Shown piece by piece: positions 10,709 to 60,913 of a stretch of DNA of 64,000 nt. The first letter of the stretch is position 1. Each line of letters opens with the position of its first letter. The notes beneath the pieces were generated by a model. It saw only the letters and a list, made by a program, of their open reading frames with translations. It searched no databases and had not been told where the DNA came from. Source of the stretch: Magnolia sinica (lineage: Eukaryota; Streptophyta; Magnoliopsida; Magnoliales; Magnoliaceae); contig NC_080588.1 of NCBI RefSeq assembly GCF_029962835.1, positions 14,092,001-14,156,000 of the forward strand, in the 5' to 3' direction. A program made the translations under genes and the position numbers.

Positions 10709-10772
<64 letters not shown>

Positions 10773-35424: not shown

Positions 35425-35519
35425 ATAATGTCGGACTGTGGGGCCAACTTGATGTATGTGTTGCATATCCACACGGTCCATCCATTTTTCTGTATCATTT
35501 TAGGATATGGTCACAGAAA
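35425..35519. repeat. Left half of a GGGCCCACC-type element split by the MULE
   Basis: The sequence 'ttgatgtatgtgttgcatat' to 'ttaggatatggtcacagaaa' matches the first ~95 bp of the family. It resumes at 56,286, beyond the MULE, with the family's next segment. The last nine bases (TCACAGAAA, 35,511-35,519) are the target-site duplication. Confidence 0.75.
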
Positions 35520-35745
35520 GAGAAATTTAGGACTGTGGACCCCACCTTTTATCCAACTATTTTTATGAAAGAAGACAAACTTTGTTTTGCAACTTAGACC
35601 TGCACGTGAGGAGACCGAATTTCAGCACAAAAATACCCCTCCTTTTCACTGTTGTCCACTTTCCTCTCCCTTTTTACTATCTGATTTTCATCTCCCTTTC
35701 CACTGCTGCTTTCACATTGCTTTCACCCCCCTTTCCACACTCCGG
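35520..35745 (+). repeat. Left terminal inverted repeat of the MULE
   Basis: Aligns with the reverse complement of 56,085-56,285. The first ~115 bp are nearly collinear (GAGAAATTTA, then gactgtggaccccacctttt, then atgaaagaagacaaac, then a ttttgcaactta segment). The match then weakens to shared 'ctttcac' and 'ttgctttcac' strings. Confidence 0.9.
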
Positions 35746-36400: not shown

Positions 36401-36407
36401 ATGATTT

Positions 36408-36925
36408 TCTAGTTTGCCCCGCTGATTTTGTAGTTTCCCCCACTCAAAATTCAAGTTTCCCCCGCTCAATGTCTTGTTTGCCCCGCTGAATTTCTAGTTT
36501 ACCCCACTCAAATTCAAGTTTGCCCCGCTGAATTTGAAGTTTGCCCATCTTAAATTCAAGTTTCCATTGCTGAAATTCAAGTTTGCCCCGCTGATTTTCT
36601 AGTTTGCCCCACTCAATTTAATGTTTCCCCCACTGAAATTCTAGTTTGCCCTGCTCAAGCTCTAGTTTCCCCCACTGAATTTCTAGTTTGCCCCGCTCAA
36701 TTTCATGTTTCCCTTGCTGATTTTCCAAGTTGCCTCGCTGATTTTTTAGTTTGGCCCGCTGAATTTCATAGTTTGCCCCGCTGAATTTCATGTTTAGCTC
36801 GCTGAATTTCATGTTTGCCCCGCTCATTGTTCAGTTTTTCCCACTGATTTTTTCGTTTCCCCTATTGAATTTCATGTTTGCCCTGTTTAATATCTAGGTT
36901 CCCTCCCTTAATGTCTAGGTTCCCT
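36408..36925 (+). repeat. ~21-bp tandem array 1 (TTTGCCCCGCT orientation)
   Basis: Consecutive ~21-bp units consist of TTTGCCCCGCT followed by [G/C]AATTTC or GATTTTC and then TAG, ATG or AAG. They are degenerate, with units of 20-22 bp. Because 21 is a multiple of three, long spurious frames with heptapeptide repeats appear on both strands; they are not genes. Confidence 0.93.
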
Positions 36926-37431
36926 CCCATATATGGGGTTTGGTGTATACATAATCCGATGAACATGATGTATTACAAATAAAACATCATACCAAGCATA
37001 ATCGGATTGCGTACTGAGTTAGTCAGTCCGCTCCCATTATATTAAGTAAAGTCATATGGGCCCACATTGAATGTATGTAGTATATCCATGACGTCCATCC
37101 GTTCTTCCATCTAATCTTAGCAGTTTAGCCCCAAACTGAAGCATATCAAAAGATCAAGTGGATCATACCGTGGGAAACAGTGGGCATAATGATTTCCACC
37201 GTTGAAACCATAGTGGGCCCAACAATGATGTTTGCTTGTTATCAAACCTATTCATAAGATCATATAGACATGGATTAATAGAAAACACAATTATAAGCTT
37301 GATCCAAAACTTCTGTGGCCCCTAAGAAATGATCAATATGAGAAGTTTAATTCAAAATTTTCATGTGGTGTGGTCCATTTGACATTGGATATGTTTAGTT
37401 TTTTTGGGATCCATACATGAAATTATCTGTT
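36926..37431. repeat. Spacer block of the left arm, inverted copy at 52,516-52,720
   Basis: 37,224-37,440 (gttatcaaacctattcataa, then atagacatggattaatag, then aacttctgtggcccctaag) is present in reverse complement at 52,516-52,720. Both copies sit directly beside an array, showing that the arms are long inverted repeats well beyond the terminal TIR. The spacer itself derives from a GGGCCCACC-type element. Confidence 0.8.
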
Positions 37432-38192
37432 AAGTTTGCATCGCTGATTTTCTAGTTTGCCCTGTTGAATTTCACGTTTCCCCCGCTCAATTTCATGTTT
37501 GCCCTGCTGATTTTGTAGTTTGCCCCGCTCAAATTCAATTTTGCCCCGCTGAATTTAAAGTTTGCTCCGCTCAAGTCAAGTTTCCCTCGCTGAAATTCAA
37601 GTTTGCCCCGCTGAATTTCTAGTTTGCCCAGCTCAATTTAATGTTTCCCCTGCTGAATTTCTAATTTGTCCTGCTCAAGTTAATGTTTTCCCTGCTGAAT
37701 TTCTAGTTTGCCCCGCCTAATTTCATGTTTCCCCCGCTAATTTTTCAGGTTGCTCCGCTGATTTTCCAGGTTGCCCCGCTAATTTTTTAGTTTGCCCCAT
37801 TGAATTCGTAATTTGCCTCGCTAAATTTCTAGTTTCCCCCGTTGAATTTCATGTTTACCTTGCTCATTTTCATGTTTGCCCCGCTCAATTTCAAGTCTAC
37901 CCCGCTAAATTTTAAGTTTGCCCCACTCAAATTCAAGTTTCCCTCACTGAAATTCAAGTTTGACCCCCTGAATTTCTAGTTTGCCCTCCTGAATTTTTAG
38001 TTTGCCCCGCTCAATTTCATGTAATTGCCACTCAATTTTGCAGTTTGGCTCACTGAATTTTCAGTTTGCCCCGTTGTTTTTCTAGTGTCCCCCACTAAAT
38101 ATCTAGTTTGCCCTGCTCAATTTCATGTTTGCCTCGCTTATTTTGATAGTATGTATTGTAAAATTTCTGGTATTTCCTCGCTCAATTTCTAT
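37432..38192 (+). repeat. ~21-bp tandem array 2
   Basis: Same unit and same orientation as array 1. Many units read GCCCTGCT or GCCCCACT in place of GCCCCGCT. The array ends ~140 bp before the first exon-like sequence of the DUF1985/Ulp1 gene. Confidence 0.93.
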
Positions 38193-38329
38193 TTATATTT
38201 CATATGAACCTTGTTCAAATTCATGAAATGCTACATTGTTTTCATTTATTTCTGATTTTGTACAGTATGTTTATGTTGTGAATTTTATGTTTGATATATT
38301 TTTCATTTTCATCTTTACAGGTGAGGAAT

Positions 38330-41125
38330 ATTTTGTTGTAATCCCCAACCCAACCTCTAGGTGTACACTGAAATGGTGGTTTGAGAAGGTGAAGGGTGGA
38401 TTGGAAAAGCACGATAGTCAACTAAATTTGTTTAGCCAATCCCCTTTTTCATTTCTATTACATGCTACATCCTTTAGATTTTTAGGGGCTCTATTTCACC
38501 TTCTTTTTCAACGATATAAAGGTGATCTAGTATTTGAGATCAGAGGAAGGTGCAGTTTATCGAGATGGACTTTGCCCTCATTATGGGCCTTAAGACTGGA
38601 GATCTTACCGTATCGAAAATTTGTGGCACTATGAGTACATTAAGAAACAAATACTTCAAGCAATATCCAATATTAAAGAAGGACCTAATGGACGTTTTTG
38701 ATAGATTAGTTGACAGCAATAAGCATGAGGATGTCGTGAAGGTTGCCCTACTCCTGGTTGTAGAGTTCTTTCTCAGGGGAACCGAACTGAAAACCATGTG
38801 CAACATGGATTATATTCACTTGGTGGACTCGCTAGATGATTTCTATAACTATCCTTGGGGTAGTTTGGGGTACCATGCAATGTCGCAAGGAATAGAATCT
38901 AGCGTTGCCGCATTAAGTGTCCCTCGGTACACTGTATGTGGTTGCCTCCTTCCTCTACAAGTAAGTACACCTTTTATTTTTTATATGTTTATCCTCTATA
39001 TGCAATTATGAATTTTTAACCCGGTGCAATTTTATTCTAACAGGTATGGGTAGTAGAGATACTACCTGCCCTGTAAGAGTGTGTTGTTTCGTATGTTCCC
39101 CATCAAATTCCACGCTTCAATCAATATCAAGGCTGGAAGGGTTGGAGGTACAACAAAATACATGCTAGCTATAAGTTAATATATTTCTCTAGCATTTACT
39201 TTGCTTAATTCTAACAGGTATACGCTTTTATATTTAACAATACTCTTCGTTCTTTTGCAGACATCAGTAATAATGAAATTAAAACCGACCCTTCGAGAAT
39301 GGGAACGGATGCGGTGAGATCGGTTCGTGAAAGTTTCTAGGTAAGATGTTATGGGAAAATGAACTATATTTTTTCTGCTTTTGTAAAGGAATCATTCCTC
39401 TTACATACCCATTGTTATGCTGTGTAGCTCAGTGAGACCCAGGAAGATGAGGAATAGGGTAATGAGAGTGATCATAAGGAGGAAGATGAATCAAACGAAG
39501 AGGGAAAAAATACTGAGAAAGGCGTGGAGGGAGAGGGACCGAGGGGGGGTATTATTCTTATGGAGGAATTTCGGGTTGAGAAGGAAGAGTTGAAGAAAGA
39601 GAGAGAGGAATTGAAGAAGGAGAGGGAAGAATTGAGGAAAGAGAAGGAAGACTTGAGAAGGAAAGAAGCGAGGGTTGATGAGAGGGAGGCGTTACTGAAA
39701 GAGAAAGAAGCATTGAAAAGGGAGAAGGATTTATTTTTTGAAGAGAAAGAAAAGTTAGCGAAGGAGAGAGAGGAGTTCAATAAGGAGAAGGAAGATTATA
39801 AGATGGAGGAGGAGGGTGAGGAGTTGAAGAGACGGGAAGAAAATGATATTAAAGAGAAAGAACGCTTCATGCACAGGGAATTTGATGTGCACACGTTTGG
39901 TTTCGCCAAGGGTAATGTATTGGATGCATCCACTTCTCATCCCGTCTATCAGAGGAGACCCAAAAGGGTACTGAAGCCATCAATTTATAAGGTTTCTCCG
40001 TACTTGTCCCTGTCTGCATTTGATACAACCCCTGGTTTGGTTCCCGAACCCAAGGCTGCAACAAGTTTTGCCACTACTCCGATACCATTTCCTCTACAGA
40101 TGGATCCATTCGGGATACTATCTGCGTAGCAATTGAAAGAGGTAGAGGACTAGTATGAAGCGAACAAGGCCACATCAGCCTACTCCTGGTTTGGTATGAT
40201 ATGGGTGAAGGATGCGTGGGTTGATAGCGTGGTAGGCATCACTAATTTATTCTCTATATGCATTGATAGACATGTAATTATTTATTATATTAATATATGG
40301 CTAAATCATACTATCCTATTGATTAGGCTATTGACAAATACATCAATTTCCTTGAGAAGAGGCGGACTGACCTGGCAATAGTCTATCCTCAGGATTGCAA
40401 GTTCTGTACAACGTTTTTTATGGTGACTGTTTAATTCGGACAATACTTAATATGTTTCACTTTTTCAACTTCTTAATTGTATTGATCTTTGATCATGTAT
40501 GTTTGTAACAGCCAATGATTGATAGGTGTTTGCCGGTTTTGATCACATATCGGGCATTGAACTCAGCATCAGAATGGGCCGAGCTGAACTCGGTCTACGC
40601 AATTGCGAAGCAGCGAGATAGACCATACACCAAAGTGATTTGGTGTTATGAACGGGTATTGCACTCGTCCCAGAACTTCTTCTGTGAGTGTTATATGTTC
40701 TATTCATTTTTTATTAATATATTATTTTTTCAATCATGGACATGTGTATGCGCCCATAAACCATGAAAATTCAATTGGTTTTTGCTGGTCATATATCCAA
40801 GACAGAGGAAAATGGTTATTGTGGATAGCTTAAGCACAAATCCATTAATAAAATACAAGTGTACGATGAGGAAGATGACCGATGCACTTCCCATTCTCTT
40901 CCATGTCACTAGAGACAGCACTGCGCTTGAAGGGAAGAAATGGACCGTCAGAGTCGATGAATCAGCGCCAAAGCAAGACAATGGTTATGACTGTGGCATT
41001 TTCGTAATGAAATACATTGATATTTTGTGTAGCATCTCACCTTAGCGGAAATAGACATGCAAAAATTCACTGTTGATTGGAGGAAGTTAATAACATATGA
41101 CTGCTTGTCTCTAGTTTGTAGATGA
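38330..41125 (+). pseudogene. DUF1985 + Ulp1 (C48 cysteine protease)-like gene of the MULE, degenerate
   Basis: Exon-like blocks: ~38,330-38,960 (DUF1985: WWFEKVKGGLEKHDSQ, FALIMGLKTGDLT, HLVDSLDDFYNYPWGSLGY), donor GTAAGT at 38,961; 39,044-39,147; 39,261-39,340; ~39,428-40,230 (a long Glu/Lys coiled coil, ~39,565-39,870); ~40,327-40,422; ~40,513-40,683. Last comes the protease end with IVDSL and the QDNGYDCGIFVMKYID Gln/Cys site, to TGA 41,125. Catalytic Asp, Gln and Cys are present. The position of the usual HW reads NW, and a frame change lies just before it. Another frameshift splits DUF1985 near 38,540, and nonsense codons occur near 39,075 and 40,127. Ulp1 enzymes process or remove SUMO. 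In MULEs such genes are element-borne rather than cellular SUMO proteases. Confidence 0.8.
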
Positions 41126-41313
41126 TATTTGTCAAGGGCATGGGAGCAATTTTGTTGAAATGTTGTACTATATACATTGTATTTTATACATTATACATTG
41201 TTGTCTCACTCATGTACAATTTCCTGTTGCATACATTGTGTTATATACATTGTTGAATATACATTGTACATTATGTTATATACATTGTTGAATATACATT
41301 ATGTTGTATACAT

Positions 41314-41675
41314 TTTATGCTTGCCCCACTGAATTTCATCTTTGCCCCACTCAAATTCATGTTTGCCCTGCTGAATTTCATGTTTGCCCCGCTCAATTCC
41401 TAGTTTGCCCCACTGAATTTCATGCTTGCCCCACAAATTTCATGTTTGCCCCGCTCAAATCATGCTTGCCCCGCTCAATTTCTAGTTTACCCCGCTCAAT
41501 TTCATGCTTGCCCCGCTCAATTTCATGTTTGCCTGGCTCAATTTCTACTTTCCGCCGTTGAATTTCATGCTTACCCCGCTGAATTTCATATTTGTCCCGC
41601 TCAATTTCATGCTTGCCCCGCTCAATTTCAAGTTTGCCCCACTGAATTTCATGCTTGCCCCGTTGAATTTGATGT
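41314..41675 (+). repeat. ~21-bp tandem array 3
   Basis: Same orientation as arrays 1 and 2, and mostly the 'tttcatgcttgccccgctc' variant. It is preceded by a short 'tatacattgttgaatataca' repeat (41,160-41,310) and followed by unidentified sequence. Confidence 0.92.
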
Positions 41676-41814
41676 TGCAGGAGCTGTTCGCTGATACCGC
41701 TTTAGAGGTTGATGTTCGAGCTAGGGGTAAGGAGCCATTGCATTCTCTGCTTTTCTTTCGACTTTTCTCTACTTAATAAACTAATATGGAATGATTACGC
41801 ACCCCTCAATTTCT

Positions 41815-42430
41815 TGACACCCAGTATATGTCCCTTTAGTTGGAAAGAAAATAGCATATTAAGAATTTTCAATGACATTCTCCAAATCCCCGATGTATTT
41901 GGCATTACCAATAAAAAATCTATACCTTATGCAGCATATGTCAGCTATGAAGGATTACGCAGACCAGTTAAATAATATGAATAAGGAAAGAGCACATAGC
42001 ATCTGATCCTTGCATGATTACTTTCATAGCGCGTAGATACTTTGAAGATTTTCTTTACTTTTTTTATATTCTGCTTAGGTGTCGACATGGATTTGTGAAC
42101 AGTGAAAATGTGCGATTTTGATTCAGGCCTACTGCAGATTCAATGGAGTGCCTGAGAAGCACTTCCCTTGTAGCCACTAACAACAATAACTAGTGCACTG
42201 CAATAAGAACTAGATTGATTTTGAAAGAAAATAACATATTTATAATTTCCAACAACATTCTCCAAATCCCCGATGTAAGTCGTAGCGACAACGTGGATAT
42301 CTCCCGAGATTTGCTCATTCTCTCTGTATTTTAGTAAGAAATAATGCATGGAGCAAATATGTTTTAAAAGTACAAATTACCCAATGAACACTTTTTAGGT
42401 TATTCACCTAGAACAAGTGGATGACAACAT
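41815..42430 (-). pseudogene. Captured RNA-dependent RNA polymerase fragments, left-arm copies
   Basis: The - strand at 42,349-42,205 reads KYRENEQISGDIHVV, then ATTYIGDLENVVGNYKYVIFF. A second, more decayed piece at about 41,900-41,830 reads IGDLENVIENS, a stop, then YAIFFPTKG. Both match the region just before the catalytic loop of plant RDR proteins. DNA from 42,205 to 42,433 is inverted relative to 50,467-51,135. The left copy lacks about 14 codons (the LVYKAPELHF part) and the active-site exon end. Confidence 0.75.
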
Positions 42431-42974
42431 GTTGATGCAATATGGAAAAACTACATCAGATTTATACAGAACATCTAAAATTTTAAGAAATTTATGATGA
42501 TAGAAACTTATGGCAATTGTATGTGCATTTAAATTGCTTTCAACAACACATCTAATAGGTCTTAAGTACAAAACATACTTCTCAATGCAATGTGCTTATT
42601 GGAACAAACATTTTAAGCATCATTCAAAGCATTCCTCAGAAGATCCATAATTTGGGACGCATTCATAGTTTAGCAGTGAAATTAAATTCTTATTTAGGTA
42701 CGTTTTCCTTGACTGGTTGCTAAAAAATACAAGCACTAAAACCAAGGACGGAATTTATTCACCCTCGTAATGATCCCTAGTGCTACAATACAACCCCAAC
42801 TTTTTCGTCCTAATAAAATTTCAAATACTCCTAACAAGGATGAAATTTATTCATCTTCGTATCGATCCCTAGTGGGCATGGCTAACATGGAGGGTGTGTA
42901 CTGACATGGGTGTGTACAACAAGCCAACTGAAACAAAAAATAAAAAAAGTGAACATAAAATAAAATTACAAATA
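42431..42974. other. Unassigned MULE interior
   Basis: AT-rich. It contains two similar strings with 'tttattca.c.tcgta.tgatccctagtg' at about 42,750 and 42,850. No coding region is recognised. Confidence 0.4.
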
Positions 42975-43750
42975 TATACGTAAAGTCGATTACATCGACA
43001 TATCATCGATATTATCGACAGAAGCTATCGATATAATCGACATATCATCGATATAATCTACGTAAGTCATAGATCATATCGACAATTTGTCGATAATATC
43101 AAAACTGGATGACAATTGTCCAGCAAGCATCGATGGATTTTCATATAATGTCGATATATCGAGACTTTATCATATATCGATATATCGATATATTGACAAA
43201 TTGTAGATAATATCGAATTATGGCTGTTAGTGTCCAGCAACCAATGCCACAAAATCCATATTTTGTCTATATATCGACACATTATCGATCATATCGATGA
43301 TGACGATGGATACATCGACGATATGTCAATGTATCCATCGTATAAAGCAATCATGTATGTAAAGTCGATTATATCGACATATCGTCGATAGAATAGATGT
43401 AAGTTATAGATCCGATCGACACATCTTCGATATAATCAACGTAAGTCATCAATCATATCTACAATTTGTCAATAATATCGAAACTGGTTGACAATTATCC
43501 AGCAAGTATCGATGCATTTTCATATAATATCGATATATCGAGACTTTATCGATATATCGATATATCGACAGCTTGTGGATAATATCGAATTAAGGCTTTT
43601 AGTGTCCAGCAACGAACGTCTAAAATTCAATATTTTGTCGATATATCGACACTATCTCGATACTATCGACACCATAACTGTCCACCAACGATTCAAATTC
43701 CTTCTTGATATATCTACAACTTATCGATATATCGTCAAACCAAACATCGA
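42975..43750. repeat. ATCGAT-rich satellite, two tandem 379-bp units
   Basis: 'taaagtcgat' at 42,981 and 43,360, 'taagtcat.aatcatat' at 43,063 and 43,442, and 'ccagcaag' at 43,120 and 43,499 all repeat with a 379-bp period. Within each unit the DNA is dense in tcgatatatcgat and cgacaatttgtcgataat palindromic strings. It is non-coding. Confidence 0.88.
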
Positions 43751-43849
43751 TATACCGACAAGTTGTCGATAACATCGATGACACGTTCAAACTGCATTAA
43801 CTGCTTTTGCCAACCATCCTTTATTACCTCCATACCCCCATTTCTTTCA

Positions 43850-43946
43850 ACTTCATCTTCCAAAACGTTGCATCCTCTTCATCTCCAACAGATTTCTCCA
43901 CGCAAGCAACCTTCCGGTTTGAGGGATTTCTTCTACGACAATCTCG
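43850..43946 (+). promoter_or_regulatory. Probable noncoding first exon of the MULE's second + strand gene
   Basis: A CT/CA-rich stretch (cttcatcttccaaaacgttg, then catcctcttcatctccaac) ends in the donor TCG|GTAAGATT at 43,946/43,947. An acceptor (gtttgaaacag) at 45,243-45,253 lies ~20 bp before the ATG at 45,275, implying a 1.3-kb leader intron. Between 44,000 and 44,760 nothing else is recognised. Confidence 0.4.
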
Positions 43947-44764
43947 GTAAGATTTTGTTTATTGCAATTTCCATGAAATGCTGATTTTTTCGATGATGGA
44001 AAGCCCTTCTTTCCTTTCTTCTATTTCTCAATCTGTCAATTGGATTTTAGCTTCTTTATTCAAGTTGAAAACGGAAATAGGGTTGCTGAGGTAGAAATGA
44101 TTTATTAGAGGTTTTGATATTTAATATATAATTATTGTTAACATGAACTCACTATATATCAGAGATTAAGATATCAAATACGTAGTTACTGTTAACTAAA
44201 ATGAGACGAAATCATTTTTAGATGTCTACCAAACATGACCTAAGACTGGTGATTTAGTTATCCCAAAGAGGAGTTTCATTCCTTACCACTGTAGCGAAAT
44301 CTGAACCAAAAGACAAATATAGAAAGTAGAAAGAAGGGATAAGTGCAGGTGGGAACAGATACAAGCAAAATTAAACTAATTGGATGGTTGCTATGCTTAA
44401 TCAATTTGATTTTCCAGCATGGGGCTTGTTACTCGGGCACTCAGAAACTGTATGAATGGCAAACATCAACTCATATTAAACTAACTAAATGGAAGAACCC
44501 ATTGTCCAAGTCAATGCTCCAAAACAAGACCACTGGAACAATCCTAACCTCTGATTTGTAGACACTTGTTGATGTTTTATTAGGACCATCAGATATTTTT
44601 TATTTTTAACCATCCGATAAATGTCCATCAGATAATCAAACAAGCATAATTTTTCATGTTATATCTAAAGTGAGACCCGTCATCTGTAAAGATCAACTTG
44701 AATTACTTATACGCCACATATAAAATTTCTAAGTAATTCAGAGTTCCTGTAAAGTTCCAAATGG

Positions 44765-45410
44765 TTTTAGTTTCACAGGAGATACTCCATAAGCTGGACC
44801 CTTTCTAAAGGGACTAGAACTTATCTCCAATTGAACTTATTTCTATAATTCTTTTAGTTGTTTAGATAGCTATAATTCCTACAGGTCATTACCAGTTAAT
44901 TGTTAGAATTAGAAATCCACGATCACATGAGATACTAAGGCATTGTAGACCCTTTCTAAAGGAAATAGAAATTTAGAAATCAGAACATCTCCATCATTAA
45001 TAACTTTCATTGAGATATTAAGAATCATTGTATGCTTCTATGAATAGATGTGAATGGAGCTGATTTTATATATAAGTGGCATGTTCGTATGAAGTATGTT
45101 GTGCTACAACTGCCCATGCGGAGTTCTTCTAGATAATCGCTAGATGATTTATATAGATACATTAGTTCATTGATCAATGATAAATCATGAATTGGACAGG
45201 TATATATATTCTCAATTTTGAGTTTACTTTATCATTTCCTTTGTTTGAAACAGGCAATATCATCGCAACAGATAATGACCAAGGATAAAGGAAAAAAAGC
45301 CTATGGTTGGAGAGTCAACCAGGGGAGGTTGTATAAAAATCCGATCAAGACCTTGTATGGAACGGTCAGAGGAACGGACTTCCCTGACCGAGTCGCCGGC
45401 TAGGCGAGCT
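44765..45410 (+). repeat. Segment duplicated in direct orientation at 52,865-54,395
   Basis: Shared strings include 'ggttttagtttcacaggaga' (44,764 and 52,870), 'tagatgtgaatggagctgat' (45,046 and 54,044), 'agtggcatgttcgtatgaag' and 'gataaatcatgaattgg'. They end with the first codons of the gene starting at 45,275. In the second copy about 0.95 kb of other DNA (53,060-54,000) intervenes. Confidence 0.8.
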
Positions 45411-46634
45411 CGTATTCACAGGAGTGCTCCAATTCAAGACCCTCCTCCACCAATCCAACCGGAACAACTGATCCCGCAAGTTCCTCCTCCTCCTGCGAAC
45501 ATGTACGACAAATATCGCGCCTGAAAAATTGTATATGAGAAAAAGGTCGATCGAGCGTGCATCTAGCAGTTTGGGATAACACAGATTTTGGAGAATGTTG
45601 GGTGGAGTAACCTATTAGATTTTGGAGGGATAGTTCGAAATGAGCAAGTGATCATATTTCTATCATATTGTCACATGCCGGTAATGCACCCTCCTTCATT
45701 TCAGGTGACCATTGGAGAGAACTCCACCACCATTAATACTGGGGTAGTTGCACAGCTTTTAGGGATTTCAATCACAGCTCGAGGCTTAACTGATCATGAC
45801 ATCGATGACCCAGTTGTACGGATAGAAATGACGAAGAATTTTTGTAGCAGTCAGCCGTGGAATAAGGGTAATGCACTGAGAGTAACGCACCTGGAAGCCA
45901 AGTACAAGGTGCTACACAATATCTTCTGCTTGAACGTTTATCCGAGGGACTCAAACAGATCTGACATTACTTCGTATATGTTAGACATTCTATACAGCAT
46001 CTATCATGGTATTCCTCTGTGTCTGCCCACCATCATTACTTAAATAATCGCCGACAGCATAGCGACCATGAGAAGCACATGCATTCCATTCCCACACCTA
46101 CTATGTTTACTCTCCCGTCATGTTGGCCTGATGCCCACCACAGACCGACCCAGACCTGTGAAAATGTTTACACAAAACAACATCAAGCGCATGAAACTGG
46201 GGACGAAAGGGGCATCGGCATCAGTGAGGCGCATTGAAGTTTTGATGGGAGAGACATAAGTAGAGGCTGCAGAGACGGACGAGGCTGAGACAGAGGCGGT
46301 CGACACCGACTATCCTATGGAGGGAGAGCAGCATGAGGTGCCACAACCCTCATATGGTTATACTAGTCGAAGGATACCATACCACAACCGCAGGGCATAT
46401 ATTGTTAGGCACATGGATGAGCAGGATAGACGACTGACACGACTGGAGCGATTTTCTGAGGCCATCCAGAATAGTATCGACTGGGTCGAGCGTAAAATTG
46501 ACAACCTTATTGCACAATCACCTACCGGCGTGATGATGTCGCTCCACCAGTTGGTGGTCCGTTCAGCTAAACTGGATTTACTCATGTCTGTTGTCTTGTG
46601 CATCAAGTATCTTTTTAGGATGTCAAGCCTATAG
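45275..46634 (+). pseudogene. Putative plant transposon protein-like gene of the MULE
   Basis: The ATG at 45,275 gives MTKDKGKK. One extra A in a run of seven (compare 54,285, which has six) shifts the frame at once. From 45,303 a single frame runs to TAG 46,632-46,634 with four internal stops. It begins with a basic region (RSRPCMERSEERTS) and a proline-rich linker (PPPPIQPEQLIPQVPPPP). A globular part follows (VTIGENSTTINTGVVAQLLG, LEAKYKVLHNIFCLNVYP, DITSYMLDILYSIYHGIP) that resembles the 'putative plant transposon protein' family (PF20167). It ends in an acidic stretch and an Arg-rich coiled coil (MDEQDRRLTRLERFSEAIQ). The family assignment is from pattern memory, and the function is unknown. 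Confidence 0.65.
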
Positions 46635-47119
46635 GATATTATTTTTAAATTATTTCTTTAGATCATGGGGTGAATTTTACTTTGACTGATGAAGGGGACA
46701 TTGATTTTAGTGCCCAAACTTGGGGTACTTATTTTGATTACAGTATGTGGTGTTATGCTGAAATTTTTTTATGCACTTCATGTTATGTTGCATGTTCTCA
46801 ATTTCATTTACCTTTCAAATGTTGATGGATTTCACCGGTGTGCATTACGTCACGACAATCTCGCTCCTAGATTGAGCGATATGACGTGATGATGAAACCT
46901 GATTGATTGAGTTTTTCCAAGTTTGTATAATATGATTTGATTAGACAGTTTTGCAGTTTTCTCATTGAAAAATTGTTGTACTGGGGGTGTTGAATTTGCA
47001 GTTTTGCAGTTTGTTGGAAATTACTTTGGTACGCAGGTTGTTGGAAATTACTCATAAATTGAATATGTGATACAATTACAAACTATGTATTATCCAAAGT
47101 ACATAAATTACATGATATG
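46635..47119. other. Spacer between convergent MULE genes
   Basis: AT-rich and non-coding. It includes a repeated 'ttgcagttttgcagtt'/'gttggaaattact' motif near 46,950-47,050. It probably holds the 3' ends of both convergent transcripts. Confidence 0.4.
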
Positions 47120-49522
47120 CTATACACCAGGTATGGGAAACTTGCACGACCAACGATTATGCCTGGTTTGTTTGCATCGCCCACACTTGACTGTCTTCGA
47201 TTCCTCTTCACGCGATGGAATTCTAAACTTTTTGGGTCTTCCAGCTAACCTCCTCTGCCTTGGGGGTTTAATCTGCGCATAATACTCCTTCATCCCCGCT
47301 GAAATTTTTCAGTCGCTATTGTCGCGTACTGGATACACCGATTCACTATACGTGGCCAGGTAATTATGCGCCGTGTAGAATGGGAAGCAGTATGAGTAGT
47401 GAAGAAGATTGTAGTTTATGCAGGCTGACAAGACATGCATACAAGGGTAGCCCTTCACGCCAAACTCACGACATGTACATGAAAACTCACTGAGCTTCAC
47501 CGTATCGTTATAATCTCCAACAACATAGTACTCATCTCGAGAAATAGCATGGCAGCGAAGATCTCGAGCCTTCTGCACGATATCCTTTAACTATTTCTCT
47601 GCCCATGGTGTCAAAGGACCAATAAATGATGCTGCAGATTCTCGTCTCTTGTAAAATAATTCTTGTATCTTCAACATTACAGCCTCTATCAATTTCGTAA
47701 CGGGGTATTCGCGTGCTTCTTTGAAAAGGGCATTAACGCACTCAGAAATGTTTGTCGTGACCAAGTTGAATCTTTGGCCTGGAAAGTGCGAAGATGCCCA
47801 TCTCTTGTACTCGATTTCTGTCAACCATGCATGTACTGGGGGATTGGCCATTTCGATATCATGCATAAGTTTTTCAAATTCGGCCCGCCTGCAAGTCTTC
47901 ACAGCCCTCCAGTAATACATCTCCAATGACTTGTCCTTAAAAGTATCCACCAAGTTTCTTTAGATTTGGTACGCGCAATACCCATGGATTGCATGCGGGA
48001 AGACTTGGGGAACCTCTTTCATTAGACCTTTATGTCGGTCAGATATAATGACAAGACCCTCCGTAGACTATAACATATCGTTAAGGTACATAAGGAGCCA
48101 ATTTCAACTACTGTTGTTCTCTGATTCCCCGATGCCAAACGCAACTGGAAATATATGATTGTCCCCATCTAAAGCTGTGGCGATGAATAGTACACCCTTG
48201 TATTTGCCCTTTAAGTGTGTCCCATCAATGGCCAATACCCTCTGTAATGATTTTTGAAAACTTCAAATGCATTGTCCGAGAGCTACAAAACATCTCTCAA
48301 ACCTGCAAGTCTATTGGTTAACAAGCACGGCAGTAACTGTCCCTGGGTTGGCTCTCCTCAACTCATGTAAATACAACGAGAGTTGATTGTAGGAGTCTTC
48401 GTAAGACCCCATCACATGATTAATTGTAAGCTCCCTTGCTTTCCATGCCTTCTAGTAACTAATACGAATATTATATTTCTCTTGCATGGCGAGGATAATA
48501 TCACGTGGCCTCAACCCTAGGCGTTGGTCAATGCGGCTAATAACTAGATCACACACTAGCTTACTGCTGGCTTGCCGGTGATCACTCTTCATCCATGCCA
48601 TGCCGCACGTGTGTTTTGATGTATAAGTCCATATTTTAAATATACCCGTATCATTCACCTGAGATGCATGAACTCTCCATTCGCATGCATCTTCGAAGCA
48701 CACCACGGTAAATCGCCTAGAATTTGAGTATATTACTCTATACTGGAAATTATTCCAAATGGCAAATTGGCTCAACACATACTAGCACCAACTCTTGTCC
48801 TTAAATGTTTTCCCAACAGCTATATCGATCGATCCACATAACAAATCAGTATATTCTGGCATTTTTGCATTTGTGAGTACATCATCATCAAACAGCGCGA
48901 TAACTTGACGAGTCATGAGGTTTGATGATTTGGAGAGGTCTAGAAGCAGAATGTCGCTTACACGCACAGATGGGATGGTGGATGATGATGGCAGATCTGC
49001 TGTTGATGCTAATGGCAGTGTCTTGTATTCATAATTGATGTTATTGTCAAGTGCACCACTGACTTGGCTAGTCACAACGTTTGATGTTTGCGGCGGCTCG
49101 AGCAATTGATCATTACTTATTACCACTTGTAATGGAGAAGGATTGTATTTGAATTCCACACCATACTCTTCAGCCACACTATCCACATATGTTGTGGTAT
49201 TAATGTGTTAGATTGTTTCAATGACTAACGGGATGAATTTTTCTGAATGCTCAAACTAGTAAGACAAGAACTCTCTGACATCATCGTCGTCTTTAATTTC
49301 GATTGGAGGCATTGATTCATTAGTGCAAGGATTCAATACTTTCATCCTAATATCACAATCTTCTAGTCTGCTCTTAATAATCTTGTAAATTCTAGATCGA
49401 AGCTCCTCATACATAGTCTCCAGACGTAGCGTCATTTGTTTTGATGTTCCACCCATGTATGAGTATTGTTTGTTTTCAAATTCTAACTCCCCGCCAAAAG
49501 AGTACATGATTTTTGCAGCCAT
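47120..49522 (-). pseudogene. MURA-type Mutator transposase, one frame with 11 internal stops
   Basis: From ATG 49,522 to TAG 47,120 is 801 codons in one unshifted frame. Domains in order: N-terminal (SFGGELEFENKQYSYMGG, PB1-like); MuDR DNA-binding domain (FAIWNNFQYRVIYSNSRR, VCFEDACEWRVHAS, TSKHTCG); MULE DDE catalytic core (AIDGTHLKGKYKGVLFIATA, VIISDRHKGL); SWIM finger (CTCREFGVKGYPCMH); and a C-terminal CCHC knuckle (CGRCKQTRHNRWSC). Internal stops occur at 49,256, ~49,208, 48,782, 48,452, five between about 48,320 and 47,965, 47,591 and 47,309. All are one transition away from Gln, Arg or Trp codons. An acceptor-like 'ggttttcag' just before the ATG suggests a leader intron. An intact enzyme would bind the TIRs and catalyse cut-and-paste transposition. 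Confidence 0.92.
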
Positions 49523-49754
49523 TATCTGAAAACCAATACAATGACACATTATCAGTGAATCGTAAATCAATGGAACCTTGCCATATGACAAAACTCAATT
49601 AAATAATGAAGGACCGACAGCTCAATTTCTATTATAGATAAGGATGATAAAGAGCTTAAGGAAATGAACAGTAAGCTACGCGTTTTTATTTCAAAAAAAA
49701 AAAATAACCAGATCTTATATAGATTAGGCCTTCATCGTTAACGAATGGTTTCAA

Positions 49755-50333
49755 GTGGTATTGAGTTGGCCAAATGATAAATTGAGCGACCATATCATGA
49801 TATTGATGTGGCAAACGATATTTCAAGCGAGCATACCGCGATATTGAGTTGAGAAAACATTTCTTCGAGCGAGCATAACATGATATTGAGCGGGGCAAAC
49901 GATAAATTGAGCGAGCATTGCATTGATATTGAATGGGCAAACTGTAAATTGAGCAAGCATAGGATAATATTGAGCTAGGCAAACATTAAATTGAGCAATC
50001 CTAGCATGAAATTTATCGAGGCAAACATTAAATTGAGATTATCTACCATGAAATTAAGCTGGACAAACATTAAATTGAGCGATCCTTACATGAAATTTAT
50101 CGAGTGGGGTAAACTGGAAATTGAGCGGGGCAAATTGGAAATTCAGCAGGGCAAACATGAAATTGAGCGGGGCAAACATGAAATTGAGCAGGGCAAACTG
50201 GAAATTGAGCAGGGCAAACATGAAATTTAGCTGGACAAGCATGAAATTGAGCGGGGCAAACTAGAAATTGAGGGGGGCAAACATGAAATTCAGCAGGGCA
50301 AGCATGAAATTCAGCGGGATAAGCATAAAATTG
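49755..50333 (-). repeat. ~21-bp tandem array 4 (AGCGGGGCAAA orientation)
   Basis: The reverse complement of the unit in the left-arm arrays. The first half has diverged, longer units ('gagcgagcataacatgatat'). The second half (50,106-50,333) is canonical. 49,760-50,110 is repeated in direct orientation at about 55,080-55,400. It lies upstream of the transposase gene. Confidence 0.9.
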
Positions 50334-50466
50334 GAAGTGAATGGTGACCTCAAGATGGGCCAAATGAGTGAACAAATGTATAGTTGCACAATTGGAACAT
50401 CTGAAATTCAAAGGAATGACAAAAACAATTGATTTACTAATCATTGTACTTTTTCCATATTGCTTC

Positions 50467-50530
50467 AACATGTTGTCATCCACTTGTTGGAGCGGGGCAA
50501 ATAGGAAATTGAACATGTTGTCATCCACTT
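50467..50530 (-). repeat. Single array unit inserted between 19-bp direct repeats
   Basis: AACATGTTGTCATCCACTT occurs at 50,467-50,485 and again at 50,512-50,530. The 26 bp between them contain one array unit (gcggggcaaataggaaattg). The corresponding site in the other arm (42,415-42,433) has the 19-mer once, inverted, and no unit, so the left arm represents the state before insertion. Confidence 0.85.
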
Positions 50531-50648
50531 ATTCCAGCTGAATTACCTAAAAAGTAAAAAGTGTTATTTGGGCAATTTGTTCTTTAAGAAAATATTTTTG
50601 ACACCCTCTATGATAAATTCCACTAATTACTAGTCCTTACAATTGCAG

Positions 50649-51212
50649 CTGCATTGAATCACGGAGACATGGATGATTTTCTTGCTTTGAGAATGATTAT
50701 CTGTGGAATTCCTCTTGATGAACCGTATTTGAAAGCTCATTTGTCAGTGCTAATGAGAGAAGAATTGAAAAGTCTCAAGGGAGGAAGGCTTCTTGTCAGT
50801 GAGTGTTACTATTTTATGGGAATTGCAGATCCGACTGGAATGCTAAAAGCTATTGAAGTTTGTGTTAATCTGTTTGTAATTTTGTTGCTATATTACTCTG
50901 TTTATGTGATTCCTCTGATTGTTTAAAACTAATGTGATATGTTTGCATTTGTTATCTAATTAACATTTCCATGCTTTATTTCTCACTAAAATACCGAGAG
51001 AATGCGCAAATCTCAAGAAATATATTAGTATATAAGGCTCCTGAACTACACTTTGGAGATATCCATGTTGTCACTGCGACTTACATCGGAGATTTGATAA
51101 ATGTTGTTGGAAATTCTAAATATGTTATTTTCTTTCCAACCAAAGGGCCGCGATCATTGGCAGATGAGATGGCGAATAGTGATTCTGATGGGGACATGTA
51201 CTGGTTTTAAGA
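50649..51212 (+). pseudogene. Captured RNA-dependent RNA polymerase fragment (gamma-type RDR), right-arm copy
   Basis: After an acceptor (ttacaattgcag, ending at 50,648), exon-like sequence encodes DDFLALRMIICGIPLDEPYL, then EELKSLKGGRLLVSECYYFMG and ADPTGMLKAIEVCV. A ~130-bp intron-like gap follows. The second block (about 50,990-51,212) encodes NILVYKAPELHFGDIHVV, TATYIGDLINVVGNSKYVIF, FPTKGPRSLADEMANSD and DSDGDMYW. The last is the catalytic DxDGD loop of RDR enzymes. RDR3/4/5-type enzymes carry DFDGD, and here Phe is Ser. Only a small part of the ~1000-residue enzyme is present, with intron traces. This indicates capture of host genomic DNA rather than cDNA. Confidence 0.85.
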
Positions 51213-51515
51213 AATCCAGAGGTTCGTAACCATTCCCTATTAGTTTATTAAGTAACATATGTTAGCACAAGTCTTTCTCAATATCACTCATTTTGGCACT
51301 TGATTTTTTCATGTTAATTAATTGGTGGACATGAACATGTTATTTCATTAACAAGTACATGAGTTCCTCATTATATTAGTAAAATATTAAGTTTCCTCGT
51401 ATGTCTTAGATAAAAAATGCCTAATTGTTCTTTTCTCAAGTGTATTATTTAGGAATCTTTTTTTCGTTGGAAGGATTTTCACAAGAATTAAGACAAGATC
51501 TTGGCTAACATAAAG
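51213..51515. other. Spacer after the RDR fragment
   Basis: AT-rich and non-coding. It may be captured RDR intron sequence, as it directly follows the catalytic exon, but nothing in it identifies it. Confidence 0.35.
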
Positions 51516-52515
51516 GAGCGGGGCAAACATGAAATTGAGCGGGGCAAACTAGAAATTGAGCGGGGCAAACTATAAAATCAGCGGGGCAAACTATAAAATC
51601 AGCGGGGCAACCTAGAAAATTAGTGGGGGAAACATGAAATTGAGCAGGGCAAACTAGAAATTCTGCGAGGGAAACATTAAATTGAGCGGGGCAAACTAGA
51701 AATTCAGCAGGGCAAACTTGAAATTCAGCAGGGCAAACTTGAATTTGAGCAGACAAAATAGAAATTCAGCAGGGTAAACAATAAATTCAACGCGGGAAAG
51801 TTGCATTTGAGCGGGGCAAACTACAAAATCAGTGGGGCAAATTAGGAAATCAGCGAGGCAAACATGAAATTGAGCTGGGGGAAACATTAAATTCAGCGGG
51901 GCAAACTAGAAATTTTGCGGGGGAAACATTAAATTGAGTGGGGCAAACTAGAAATTCAGCTGGGCAAACTTGAATTTCAGCGGGGCAAACTTGAATTTGA
52001 GCAGGGCAAACTAGAATTTGAGTGGGCAAAATAGAAATTTAGCGGGGCAAACAACAAATTCAGTGGGGGAAAGTTGCATTTGAGCGGGGCAAACTACAAA
52101 ATCAACGGGGCAAACTAGGAAATCAGTGAAGCAAACATGAAATTGAGCGAGGAAAACATCAAATTCAGTGGGGCAAACTAGAAATTCTGCGGGGGAAACA
52201 TTAAATTGAGTGGGGTAAACTAGAAATTCAGCAAGGCAAACTAGAAATTTAGCGGTGCAAACTTGAATTTCAGCAAGGGAAACTTGAATTTGAGCGGGGC
52301 AAACTTGAAATTCAGAGGGGCAAACTTGAATTTGAGCGGGAAAAATAGAAATTCAGTGGGGCAAACAACAAATTCAGCAGGGAAAAGTTGCATTTGAGTG
52401 GGGCAAACTACAAAATCAGCGGGGCAAACTACAAAATCAGCGAGGCAAACATGAAATTGAGTGGGGGAAACATGAAATTCATTGGGGCAAACTAGAAAAT
52501 CAGTGGTGCAAACTT
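51516..52515 (-). repeat. ~21-bp tandem array 5
   Basis: A 1.0-kb array in AGCGGGGCAAA orientation, the mirror of left-arm array 2. It contains a higher-order pattern: the block from about 51,600 to 51,890 (tagtgggggaaacatgaaat ... aaagttgcatttgagcgggg) recurs near 51,900-52,180 and 52,190-52,480, so a ~290-bp higher-order unit is repeated. Confidence 0.93.
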
Positions 52516-52720
52516 AACAGATAATTTCATGGATTGAGCCCAAAAAACTAAACGTATGCAATGTTCAAATAGACCACACCACATAAAAATTTTGAATTGA
52601 ACTTCTCATGTTGATCATTTCTTAGAGGCCACAGAAGTTTTGGATCAAGCTTATAATTGTATTTTCTATTAATCCATGTCTATATGATCTTATGAATAGG
52701 TTTAATAACAAACAAACATT
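52516..52720. repeat. Right-arm inverted copy of the spacer at 37,224-37,440
   Basis: Contains 'agataatttcatggattgag', 'cttagaggccacagaagttt', 'tggatcaagcttataattg' and 'tgaataggtttaataacaaa', each present in reverse complement in the left arm. It begins exactly where array 5 ends. Confidence 0.85.
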
Positions 52721-52864
52721 GGAAAAGAAGTCTTGATAACTAAGTACCTTGCATTATATGAAAAGCATGATAAGAAATGTTAAACAAATCTTGAAGCATT
52801 AATCTCAACGAGGCCTAAGTAGAGAAAAGAGGGAGAGCTAGTCTCAGCCAAAGAAGAAAAGCTC

Positions 52865-54398
52865 CAAATGGTTTTAGTTTCACAGGAGATACCCCAAAAG
52901 CTGGACTCTTCTCCAAATTGTTATATTAATCTATGACTAATAGGACTATTCTATTGTTATGTTAATCTAACAAGTTACTTTCAACAAATTGGAAATCATT
53001 TATCAACAGAATTTTATCTTCCAATTGAACTTATTTATATAACTCTTTTAGTTGTTTAGATAGCTGAAATCATTTAGTTATTTGCAATCTGATTTTGTTT
53101 TGTGAGTCTTTTTTGGAATTGGTATAATGTTGTTTGGTTTGTGCTTGGTGTTTTTATGCTGGGTTTGTGGGGATGGGACGGTTTGAGTGAGGGTCAATGT
53201 CAAAGGCCATCTGTTTTGGTTGTTGATTCTGAATCTGATTTCTTCGGTGGGTGTGTTTTAGAAATGTTGTTTCATATTGGGTTTGTTTGGTTTTTGATAT
53301 GGGATAATTCTTTTAGTTGCTAGGGACAAGCAAATTGAGTCATGTTTTCCATTTCTACATTCTGAATTTAAGGTCTTCTATCTTTCTAGTCTCTCTTTTT
53401 TTGGGTTGTCTTTGGTTACATTATCCAATTGGATTGCAACCATCTGTCAAATAAAGTGGAAATAACCAGATTGTAGTTTCCTTCCTTGGCATTCTTATTT
53501 AGGATGGATTTTTGAATCCTTATATTACTTTCAAGTTAGACATGATAGGGACAACTACAATTTGAGGGTCATTACCCCATATGAATACCATGAGCAGCAA
53601 TTAACTTTCCCATTCATCTTGATTAAATTAAAGGCTCGCAATTCAATTCTATTATGCATCTAAATGAAGCCTCAGCTCAATCAGTATGTCTAGAATATGT
53701 TAGTTGACTATGGCAAGGTTTCTTGTTGGGGTTCCAAGATGATTAGTTCTTCTGTTATTCCTTTCTTTTAATGAGTGTTTCAAGTTTGTCGATTAATGTC
53801 GGGAGTTGGGACAAATATTAAAATGATTTGCATGATGAGAGCTGTTTGGACTTGATGTTTTTATTAACGAGGCTTAACTGAGATATCCTTTACTGTTTCT
53901 AACTGGAAGATGTCCTTTGCATTATAATGTGCATGGACAAAAGAAACTGAGCTACTGAGATTGTAAAAAGGGGACATACCTCAAGCATGACTCTTAATAA
54001 TTTTCAATGAGACTGCCAGATTCATTTTATGCATGTGTGAATAGATGTGAATGGAGCTGATTTCATATAGAAGTGGCATGTTCGTATGAAGTATGGTATG
54101 GTACCACGAGTTGTACTACAATTGCTCATGCAGAGTTCTTCACTTAATCGTTAGATGATTTATATAGATACATCAGTTCACTGTTCAATGATAAATCATG
54201 AATTGGCTAGATATATATAGATTTTTTGAGTTTAGTTTATCATTTCTTTTGTTTGTAACAGGAACTATCATCGCAACAGTCATAATGCCTAAGGATAAAG
54301 GAAAAAAGGCTATGGCTGGAGAGTCATCAAGGGGGGATCGTACGAAACTCCGATCAAGACATAGATTGAAACGGGCAGAGGAACAGACTTCCCCTACT
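52865..54398 (+). repeat. Second, expanded copy of the 44,765-45,410 segment, with a truncated gene start
   Basis: Carries the same leader strings, the acceptor (gtttgtaacag) and ATG 54,285 (MPKDKGKKAMAGESSRGDR, then RHRLKRAEEQTSPT). It then runs directly into array 6, so the frame continues as heptapeptide repeats until 54,494. The inserted stretch 53,060-54,000 has T-rich, intron-like composition and no recognised gene. Confidence 0.75.
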
Positions 54399-55800
54399 GG
54401 GGCAAGCATGAAATTCAGCGGGGCAAGCATGAAATTGAGTGGGGCAAACTGGAAATTGAGTGGGAAAAACATGAAATTCAGCGGGGCAAACTAGAAATTG
54501 AGTGGGGCAAACATGAAAATGAGCGGGGCAAACATGAAATTCAGCGGGGCAAGCATGAAATTGAGTGAGGAAAGCATGAAATTGAGCGGGGCAAACTAGA
54601 AATTGAGCGGGGCAAACATGACATTCAGCGGGGCAAGCATGAAATTGAGCAGGGCAAACTGAAAATTGAGCGGGGCAAATATAAAATTCAGTGGGGCAAG
54701 CATGAAATTGAGCGGGGCAAACTGGAAATTGAGCGAGGCAAACATGAAAATGACCGGGGAAAACATGAAATTGAGTAGGGCAAACATGAAATTCATCGGG
54801 GCAAACATGAAATTAAGCGGGGGGAAAATGATATTCAGCAGGGCAAACTACAAATTGAGCAGGGGAAACCTGAAATTGAGCAGGAAAACATGAAATTCGA
54901 TGCAGCAAACATGAAATTTAGCAGGGCTAACATGAAAATTGAGCGGGGCAAACATGAAATTGAGCAGGGCAAACTGAAAAATTCAGCGAAAAAATCAAAA
55001 ACATTAGTACGGCAAGCATGAAATTGAATGGTGCAAACTGAAAATTGAGCGGGACAAACTATAAATTCAACTATGCAAGCAAACATTAAATCGAGAGAGC
55101 ATAGCATGATATTGAGCTGGGAAAACGATAAATCAAGCCAGCATATCATGATATTGATGTGGGCAAACGATATTTCGAGCGAGCATATCGTGATATTGAG
55201 TTGGGCAAACATTTCTTCAAGCGAGCATAGCATGATATTGAGCGGGGCAAACATTAAATTGAGCAAGCATTGCATGGATATTGAATGGGCAAACTTTAAA
55301 TTGAGCGAGCATAGGATAATATTGAGCTAGGCAAACATTAAATTGAGCGATCCTTACATGAAATTTATTGAGACAAACATTAGATTAACCTTATCTACCA
55401 TGAAATTAAGCTGGCCAAACATTAAATTGAGTGATCCTACCATGAAATTTCTCGAGGCAAACATTAAATTAACCTTATCTACCATGAAATTAAGCTGGGC
55501 AAACATTAAATTGAGCGATCGTAGCATGATATTTATCAAGACAAATATTAAATTGACCTTATCTACCATGAAATTAAGCTGGGTAAACATTAAGTTGAGC
55601 GATCCTAGCATGAAATTAAGCAGGGTAACCATGGAATTCAGTGAGCCTAGCATGAGATCAAGTGAGCCCTAACATGGAATTGAGTGAGCTTCAAATTGAA
55701 TTGAGTGAGTTTGACATGGATTTGATTGATCAATGCATAAAATTGACTAAGCCTAACATATGAAATTGACTAAGCCTAACACATGGAATTGACCGAACTT
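54399..55800 (-). repeat. ~21-bp tandem array 6, decaying outward
   Basis: Canonical AGCGGGGCAAA units run from 54,399 to about 55,060. From 55,080 the diverged 'gagcgagcatagcatgatat' and 'accttatctaccatgaaatt' units follow, partly a direct copy of 49,760-50,110. A last part to about 55,800 has 'ttgactaagcctaacata' units. This is the largest array. Confidence 0.9.
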
Positions 55801-56084: not shown

Positions 56085-56285
56085 GGCTGGAAGCACCTAT
56101 TTTTTCGTTAAGGGGAGTGAAAGCAACGCTGAAAGCAATGCAGTGAAAGGAGTATGTAAAAAGGAGGGTTATTTTCGTCCTGAAATTCAGTCTCCGCACG
56201 TGGAGGTTTAAGTTGCAAAATAAGGTTTGTCTTCTTTCATAAAAACAACTGGATAAAAGGTGGGGTCCACAGTCATAAATTTCTC
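56085..56285 (-). repeat. Right terminal inverted repeat of the MULE
   Basis: The reverse complement of the left TIR, ending in ...TAAATTTCTC at 56,285. The strongest match is 56,150-56,285. The following nine bases repeat the left target site exactly. Confidence 0.9.
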
Positions 56286-56775
56286 TCACAGAAAACAAGG
56301 AAATCCTTATCACAAGCCAACCACACCATAGGGATTGAATTTCCGCCATTAAAAACTTTTTGGGGGTAACAAAAGTTTCAGGTCAAGTTGTTGTGTTCAT
56401 TCCGATTTATGCAACCTTATAAATAGGTTGGATGGCAAATAAACATTGCAGCCCTAGGATGTTTTTAATGGTGGTCATTCAATGACCATTGTTTCTTGTG
56501 GTGCGGTCTACTTGAGATTTGGATCTACTTCATTTTTGGGCTCATGCCCTAAAACAAGTTAAAAATTTTGATGGTCGGCGTGGATATAAAATATATTTAT
56601 CAAACTAATGGACGATGTGGATATAAAATATATTTATCAAAGTGGTCCATCTGAGATTTGAATATCTCATTTTTGGGCTCATGACCTACAATGATATGGA
56701 AATTTGGATGGATGACGTGGATAAAACATATGCCATAGTGGCCCCATAGAGCTTTTCCAGCATCGAGCAAAGGAC
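56286..56775. repeat. Right half of the GGGCCCACC-type element split by the MULE
   Basis: Starts with the duplicated TCACAGAAA, then continues the family order: 'ccaaccacaccataggg', 'attaaaaactttttggggg', 'cttgtggtgcggtctacttg', 'gggctcatgccctaaaac'. A second fragment of the same family (56,595-56,770) follows and repeats 'tggatataaaatatatttat'. Confidence 0.75.
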
Positions 56776-60313: not shown

Positions 60314-60859
60314 GGGAAAAGGTACTATGCGCTCGACCTCACGAGTCCGTCCCATGAGGTCGAGCTGTGTGGGCCCCACCTTGATGCGTTTCGAACATCT
60401 ACCCCATCAGTCAGATGCACCATTCCATCGTGGGCCTAGGTCTCAAAAATCAATTCAATCTGTGACTTATGTGGGCCACACCACATGCAGAAGTGGGGAG
60501 GGGCCGTGCACTATTAAAACATTCATAATCATTTTTTGGGCCCACCGAGATGTGGTTTGCATATCCAGTCCATCCATTATGTGTGTCCCACTTGGATGAG
60601 GGTTCATACCAAGTTTCAGCAGCATTCAAAACTCAGGTGGGCCCCACCAAGTGCTTTTATATGTTTTAACGGTGTCTTCATATGATTTTAGATGGTATGG
60701 CCCACCTGAGTTCCGTATACGGCTGATTTTTGGGATATCCCATAATTTAGAGGGGACCCATCAAATGCACGGTGTTGATGGTCGACACGCATCACAGTGG
60801 GGCCCACATAGCTCGACCTCAAGTTAGGCTTGCATGCGCTTGACCGTATAGTACCATTT

Positions 60860-60861: not shown

Positions 60862-60913
<52 letters not shown>

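Follow-up and report, generated by a model that had tools for sequence, protein, structure and literature searches.

In this study, we describe a 20.8-kb Mutator-like element (MULE) of Magnolia sinica that carries six dense arrays of a 21-bp motif, and we propose that these arrays probably serve as clusters of sites bound by the DUF1985-Ulp1 protein that the element itself encodes, a protein that would act like the anti-silencing VANC proteins of Arabidopsis. The element lies in a stretch of 64,000 nucleotides (NC_080588.1, positions 14,092,001 to 14,156,000, forward strand), hereafter called the window, and all coordinates below count from its first letter. The array system is real and organised, and it is probably functional. 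An earlier note on this DNA had favoured a recognised motif over idle slippage; this idea is supported by the finding of sense-oriented arrays upstream of almost all DUF1985 exons sampled, and by motif classes that have diverged yet keep their period and register despite near-saturation of synonymous sites between two of them (classes A and D below).

Tandem Repeats Finder (TRF) located 21-bp arrays, with the consensus unit TTTGCCCCGCTCAATTTCATG, at 36402-36928, 37432-38138, 41312-41676, 49777-50333, 51517-52515 and 54399-55793; together with the segmentation into units, the arrays are as follows:

36402-36928, plus strand: array 1, 21-bp units (TRF, segmentation)
37432-38190, plus strand: array 2, immediately upstream of the DUF1985 exon (TRF, segmentation)
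41312-41700, plus strand: array 3 (TRF, segmentation)
49777-50333, minus strand: array 4, upstream of the transposase and sense to it (TRF, motif search, segmentation)
51517-52515, minus strand: array 5 (TRF, segmentation)
54399-55800, minus strand: array 6, its distal part being a 42/84-bp higher-order repeat (TRF, segmentation)

The six arrays announced in the earlier note, about 4.5 kb in total and all inside the MULE, were thus recovered by TRF, and they go far beyond chance: TTTGCCCCGCT with at most one mismatch was found 97 times in the window, against 0.75 times on average and never more than 4 in 100 shuffles. The strict strand by arm likewise holds in this copy, since all 39 matches of the left arm are on the plus strand and all 57 of the right arm within the element are on the minus strand; one further minus-strand match lies at 56847, beyond the right terminal inverted repeat (TIR). 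The estimate of about 200 units agrees with our segmentation, which gave 184 units of exactly 21 bp above the score cut and 233 under permissive settings, a few of the latter being flanking sequence. The supposed G/C-rich core is present in part of the unit, but it is not the best-conserved feature, since columns A13, T2, T11 and T17 are the best kept. Because tandem growth preserves orientation, the six arrays represent at most six independent orientation events, and these are fewer if arrays 2 and 5, which share an inverted 205-bp flank (37228-37431 and 52719-52516, 93%), and arrays 4 and 6, which resemble each other in direct orientation (49756-50371 and 55107-55708, 79%), are each counted together. 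One isolated unit of array 4 is found at 50491-50501.

The left arm encodes, on the plus strand, a DUF1985 exon (located between arrays 2 and 3), a coiled-coil-like part and Ulp1, and the right arm encodes the transposase on the minus strand; hence the inward arm pattern of this copy follows from two convergent genes that each carry sense arrays on their 5' side. Here, "upstream" means 5' of the DUF1985 exon or of the first recognised open reading frame (ORF) of the transposase, with promoter, leader and 5' intron taken together. A genome search with PF09331 yielded 819 first-look candidates, and all 150 that were scored exceeded the cut-off; from these 150 we sampled 47 loci (ranks 1 to 12, then each fourth rank from 13 up to 149). 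At 46 of the 47 loci, the 1.5 kb upstream of the DUF1985 exon contained an array of 18-24-bp units (TRF, minimum 2.5 copies, score 60), versus 3 of 20 controls. Of these controls, 18 lay at a shift of 200 kb, one at a shift of 300 kb and one elsewhere on C77; one of them, L117, was all N, and one of the three with an array, L100, was itself class A-like. Two of the 47 loci, L059 and L093, possess only a 23-bp array type. The arrangement of array 2, directly upstream of the DUF1985 exon, recurs in L024 and L016. The class D core was found upstream of DUF1985 75 times in sense and never in antisense orientation (7 loci), and the class A/B core showed the same one-sidedness at 32 loci. Moreover, among the best 150 of 819 DUF1985 places and the best 150 of 939 transposase places, the two genes faced each other in all 41 pairs lying within 20 kb, versus 1, 0, 0 and 0 pairs in shifted controls; in the window it is the Ulp1 part that can be seen on the plus strand against the minus-strand transposase, and outside it only DUF1985 was placed in relation to the transposase. 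Sense arrays upstream of the transposase were found in the window, L003, L006 and L119, of which L003 and L006 cannot serve as a test because both were found through the motif; of two transposase sides chosen regardless of motif, one had an array. Concordance of class among the arrays of one element was therefore dropped as a line of evidence, as one of these two unselected sides has no array and the other is A-like rather than Ap. For the sampled class D DUF1985 loci, no transposase was seen by eye within 40 kb among the best 150 of 939, and no whole class D element was obtained.

The upstream arrays fall into classes, which were first named by eye from the TRF consensus and then iterated from the same groups (A, Ap, B, C, D and E). 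The iterated units are TTTGCCCCGCTCAATTTCTAG for class A, TTTGGCCCGCTCAATTTCCAG for B, GTTGCCTCGCTCAATTTCTAG for C and CATTTCACGGTCAATTCCATT for D, with TTTGCCCCGCTGATCTTCTAG for subclass Ap and, at a single locus, TGTACTCGGTCAATTTTCACC for class E, which takes the same register after a shift by one. The 47 loci comprise 16 of class A, 8 of Ap, 9 of B, 3 of C, 7 of D, 1 of E and 3 of F. Classes A to E share the consensus half-site CG-S-TCAATT, which Ap and F lack; in class A, just 47% of the units have the C of TCAATT. In circular comparisons of classes A to E, all 10 pairs had their best match on the same strand, with p values from <0.001 to 0.35 (6 of 10 below 0.05; 0.004 for A against D). 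DUF1985 itself differs strongly between classes A and D (dS 1.61, amino-acid identity 56%), and because of this dS we conclude that synonymous sites have nearly saturated in a time over which period, strand and half-site were kept. On the DUF1985 tree, classes B, C, D and F each occupy one side of a branch, and 9 class changes are needed versus a mean of 28 after shuffling. A deeply diverged DUF1985 lineage, its identity to class A being about 35% in the cases measured, is found at L059, L060 and L093; the 23-bp repeats of L059 and L093 are of different sequence.

DUF1985 is under purifying selection, with a median dN/dS of 0.24 (437 usable of 595 pairs among 35 stop-free copies). Of 326 core spacings below 200 bp, 287 are exact multiples of 21 and 313 are within 1 of such a multiple, which fits sites placed on one face of the helix. 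The units also retain a mutation footprint: in the window, C>T/G>A transitions number 37 and 43 of 184 at CG and 42 at CCG, versus 5-15 at the CHH positions tallied, and this excess is a mark of past germ-line methylation. Across the sampled loci, transition fractions were 0.17 at CG, 0.22 at CHG and 0.09 at CHH in class A including Ap, and 0.20, 0.07 and 0.07, respectively, in class D.

Given these observations, we suggest that the DUF1985-Ulp1 protein would bind the motif by reading a 21-bp unit equal to two helical turns, so that successive sites would lie on one helix face. Dense same-strand arrays 5' of both the DUF1985 exon and the transposase would load the protein onto the control regions of its own family, where its binding would cause hypomethylation by holding off or removing CG and non-CG methylation, and both genes, DUF1985-Ulp1 and transposase, could thereby remain expressible. 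Subfamilies might evade cross-talk and host small RNAs when the variable half of the unit shifts and the protein shifts along with it. As a bolder and more doubtful possibility, sequence-specific anti-silencing by DUF1985 proteins may predate the eudicots, and Magnolia may run parallel systems that share the CG-containing half CGSTCAATT and differ in a family-specific address half; the CG half would possibly be read unmethylated, so that the protein would both sense methylation and tell its own family from others.

Several of our results weigh against the proposal that the arrays are binding sites of the DUF1985-Ulp1 protein. The core count upstream of class A/B DUF1985 exons (281 sense, 0 antisense, 32 loci) does not represent 281 independent events, because the copies share descent, and tandem growth would keep any period, including one of 21 bp. 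L060 has no qualifying array in the 1.5 kb upstream of DUF1985, class F has a 23-bp array or none, and the Ap loci L064 and L072 show a 19-bp array period upstream of DUF1985. Four of the 10 circular comparisons did not fall below 0.05, the best match of A to E is one base off the shared register, and A and B motifs are mixed at some loci (e.g., L095). On the transposase side, the class B element L118 has no array in the 701 bp upstream, and the array of L119 is class A-like in an Ap element. The co-divergence of motif and DUF1985 was set aside as proof of coevolution, since linkage of the adjoining array and exon suffices to produce it. Constraint is weaker among near-copies of DUF1985 (summed dN 0.202 and dS 0.350 in 13 pairs), and the window copy is decayed, its DUF1985 frame being split and its transposase interrupted by a stop. 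Finally, the footprint is confined to CG in class D, uneven in class B (whose two CG positions show 0.03 and 0.39) and absent in class C (CG 0.09, CHH 0.11).

Two other explanations appear to us unlikely, and equally so. The arrays could be promoter or enhancer repeats for a host transcription factor that drives the element's genes, DUF1985 taking no part in recognition. Arrays 5' of and sense to the DUF1985 exons and several transposases would suit such a role, as would the fit of TTTGCCCC to the loose E2F-type consensus WTTSSCSS, which matches one strand of the element 32 times and the other 50 times. Amplification of E2F sites by transposons, in which a transposon spreads many short TTT-S-S-C-type sites, is a known precedent. 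In the Magnolia element, however, strict E2F-type sites (the four TTTSSCGC forms) are nearly absent, with only 3 in the element, and were rejected as a candidate; its own sites stand in 21-bp arrays on a single strand and are tied to DUF1985. Moreover, the variable half of the unit is not the same in all DUF1985 classes, a variation that would not be favoured by a fixed host factor, and arrays 1, 5 and 6 lie away from annotated genes. The arrays could also be minisatellites that expanded through ancestral slippage and are passively carried along, in which case orientation and class would reflect descent only. Indeed, tandem growth fixes orientation, the copies are related to one another, arrays 2/5 and 4/6 have the look of duplicates, some arrays (as in L004) form higher-order tandems of about 700 bp, and the array loci L008 and L100 occur without element sequence. 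However, slippage alone fits poorly with upstream arrays that persist across classes with a median dS of up to 1.6, with a period and strand that were retained, along with a CGSTCAATT-like half, as the other half changed, and with arrays at several separate places in one element. A role for the arrays in transposase binding or end recognition, or as a source of small RNAs, is very improbable: they are located near the TIRs in several copies, including one without a DUF1985 or transposase match, but they also occur deep within the element and their orientation relative to the TIR varies.

The proposed binding by the element's own DUF1985-Ulp1 protein has parallels in known systems. VANC proteins contain DUF1985 and bind a short motif present in dense same-orientation arrays in the non-coding DNA of their own family, the motifs of VANC21 and VANC6 being different (PMC5735166, PMC10398659). 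Like the VANDAL elements described there, the Magnolia element is a MULE that combines a DUF1985 protein with dense same-orientation non-coding tandem motifs, and its relatives carry different motifs (classes A-F). In VANDAL21, the repeats are described in the introns of VANB and VANC and upstream of VANA, whereas the Magnolia repeats are found upstream of the DUF1985 exon and the transposase and elsewhere. DUF287 is depicted together with DUF1985 in VANCs in PMC5735166; no DUF287 match was found in the 14 separate ORF pieces scanned. The Magnolia element further differs from VANDALs in its TIRs of about 130 bp, its 21-bp unit, a CG-containing half-site across classes and its magnoliid host. 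Ulp1 is present on some VANC genes, and Ulp1-carrying MULEs have been described from grapevine, melon and rice; KI-MULEs (KIU/KAONASHI), which are non-TIR elements, carry Ulp1 in opposite orientation to the transposase, and motif recognition is reported within the KIU/Ulp1-carrying VANC group (PMC13317346, PMC2528002). The Magnolia Ulp1 is likewise reverse to the transposase, and since such MULEs are already known from rice and melon, Ulp1 outside eudicots is not new. VANDALs are recognised by absent or degenerate TIRs and KI-MULEs by being non-TIR, whereas the TIRs of the Magnolia element align over 131 bp with 89% identity; because of these TIRs we assign it to neither group. As some Brassicaceae VANDAL relatives do have TIRs (PMC6446971), TIRs alone do not set the Magnolia element far apart.

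Magnolia sinica is a magnoliid and hence lies outside the eudicots. The title of the 2022 EMBO J article by Sasaki et al. places anti-silencing systems in eudicots, and the determinants are reported there to be the sequence of the motif, its density and its helical periodicity. We found no VANC-like arrangement in a magnoliid in the titles and abstract openings among the matches listed, in a search that mostly left out subscription journals; a VANC-like arrangement in a magnoliid, with several motif classes, thus appears to be new. If our proposal is true, transposon-encoded sequence-specific anti-silencing would be no eudicot novelty, and one magnolia genome would offer several natural motif/protein classes for finding the DUF1985 residues that choose DNA. 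The question of how VANC changes its target would become testable through classes with half a site in common, and sequence-specific demethylation modules could result.

The proposal would also account for a large set of 21-bp repeats in this genome. The strict dimer of class A has 3,234 exact matches (1595 + 1639) and that of class D 12,980 (6646 + 6334), with 0 for either reversed pattern. We inspected 20 array loci, 19 from pattern searches (overlaps merged) and control L100; L005 proved to be a lone motif and L002 to hold five scattered units only. With L005 excluded, further sequence of this element was present within about 3 kb at 17 of 19 array loci. At 13 of these it included TIR, transposase, DUF1985, RNA-dependent RNA polymerase (RdRP) or subterminal sequence, and at 4 (L004, L013, L015, L030) it was spacer sequence only; L008 and L100 have none. 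Spacer sequence is the weaker sign, since 3 of 20 control regions match the spacer module at 65-75%, and parts of this module resemble a dispersed repeat; no TIR match and one transposase relative (L112) were found in the 20 controls. The earlier note would have taken a 21-mer common genome-wide outside such elements as counter-evidence; the 3,234 dimers fit this literally but, given the 17 of 19 loci, mostly not in substance. The inward mirroring, in turn, is not a general feature: the full-length C13 copy, with arrays in the order + + + - + -, rules out "inward by arm" as a rule, and elsewhere the strand order of neighbouring arrays varies. Among the first 100 listed places per pattern, all on C1, opposite-strand neighbours within 5 kb were convergent in 2 and divergent in 8 cases for class A, and in 5 and 1 cases for class D. 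Where neighbouring listed dimers lay within 300 bp of each other (48 pairs in class A, 68 in class D), no strand switch was seen, and abutting arrays can switch strand within about 110-165 bp (L015, L013). At L004, spacer module and array form a higher-order tandem of about 700 bp, with four copies in 3 kb.

The other features of the element are listed below.

35511-35519, no strand: left target site duplication (TSD) TCACAGAAA, identical 9-mer beyond both TIRs
35520-35649, plus strand: left TIR, 117/131 against the right TIR
36931-37431, plus strand: spacer module, about 500 bp, with an array at its 37431 side (sequence comparison)
38196-39011, plus strand: DUF1985 exon (PF09331, 42.3 bits, cut-off 35.1)
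39458-40129, plus strand: coiled-coil-like part with in-frame 21-bp repeats at 39578-39656 (ORFs, TRF; coiled coil by eye)
40767-41045, plus strand: Ulp1/Peptidase_C48 C-terminal catalytic part (PF02902, 46.3 bits)
41770-42433, minus strand: inverted fragments of the right-arm RdRP region (79-91% matches)
45567-46043, plus strand: weak PF20167-like ORF (23.4 bits, under the cut-off of 45)
47309-49594, minus strand: MULE transposase with DBD_Tnp_Mut and SWIM (PF03108, PF04434)
50627-51210, plus strand: captured RdRP fragment (PF05183, 35.1 and 66.7 bits)
56156-56285, minus strand: right TIR, pairing with the left TIR
56286-56294, no strand: right TSD TCACAGAAA, identical 9-mer

The element is thus bounded by paired TIRs and a 9-bp TSD, and a genome search with the TIR gave 1727 first-look candidates, of which 40 were scored and the best other copies reached 94-95%. 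Its transposase is Mutator-like, PF03108 and SWIM both exceeding their cut-offs, with an in-frame stop between the ORF pieces 48452-48781 and 48782-49207; 939 first-look relatives were found genome-wide, of which 150 were scored. The DUF1985 domain of the window copy is spread over two frames, split near 38.54 kb, and other copies keep it in one frame. The in-frame 21-bp (heptad) coding repeat of the DUF1985-Ulp1 gene has comparable counterparts 3' of the DUF1985 match in L054, L055, L056, L057 and L061, and peptide repeats are reported in the variable regions of VANC (PMC5735166).

The RdRP fragment, whose catalytic-motif region reads DSDGD, also matches RDR2 chains (E 0.003); a piece of a silencing-pathway gene is carried within a putative anti-silencing element. 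The inverted fragments of its region in the left arm indicate that the capture was duplicated or rearranged. It has been amplified with the element: 41 matches are listed of 210 candidates, other copies being 84-96% identical, and among these matches 9 lie, as judged by eye, about 2-4 kb upstream of a transposase match in divergent orientation, one of them with an open frame of 805 aa. A separate block of ATCGATA-type repeats (about 20 bp and larger units), unlike the 21-bp motif, occupies 42974-43669 inside the element, and a 563-bp direct repeat, 94% identical, flanks the MULE at 10196-10757 and 60348-60909.

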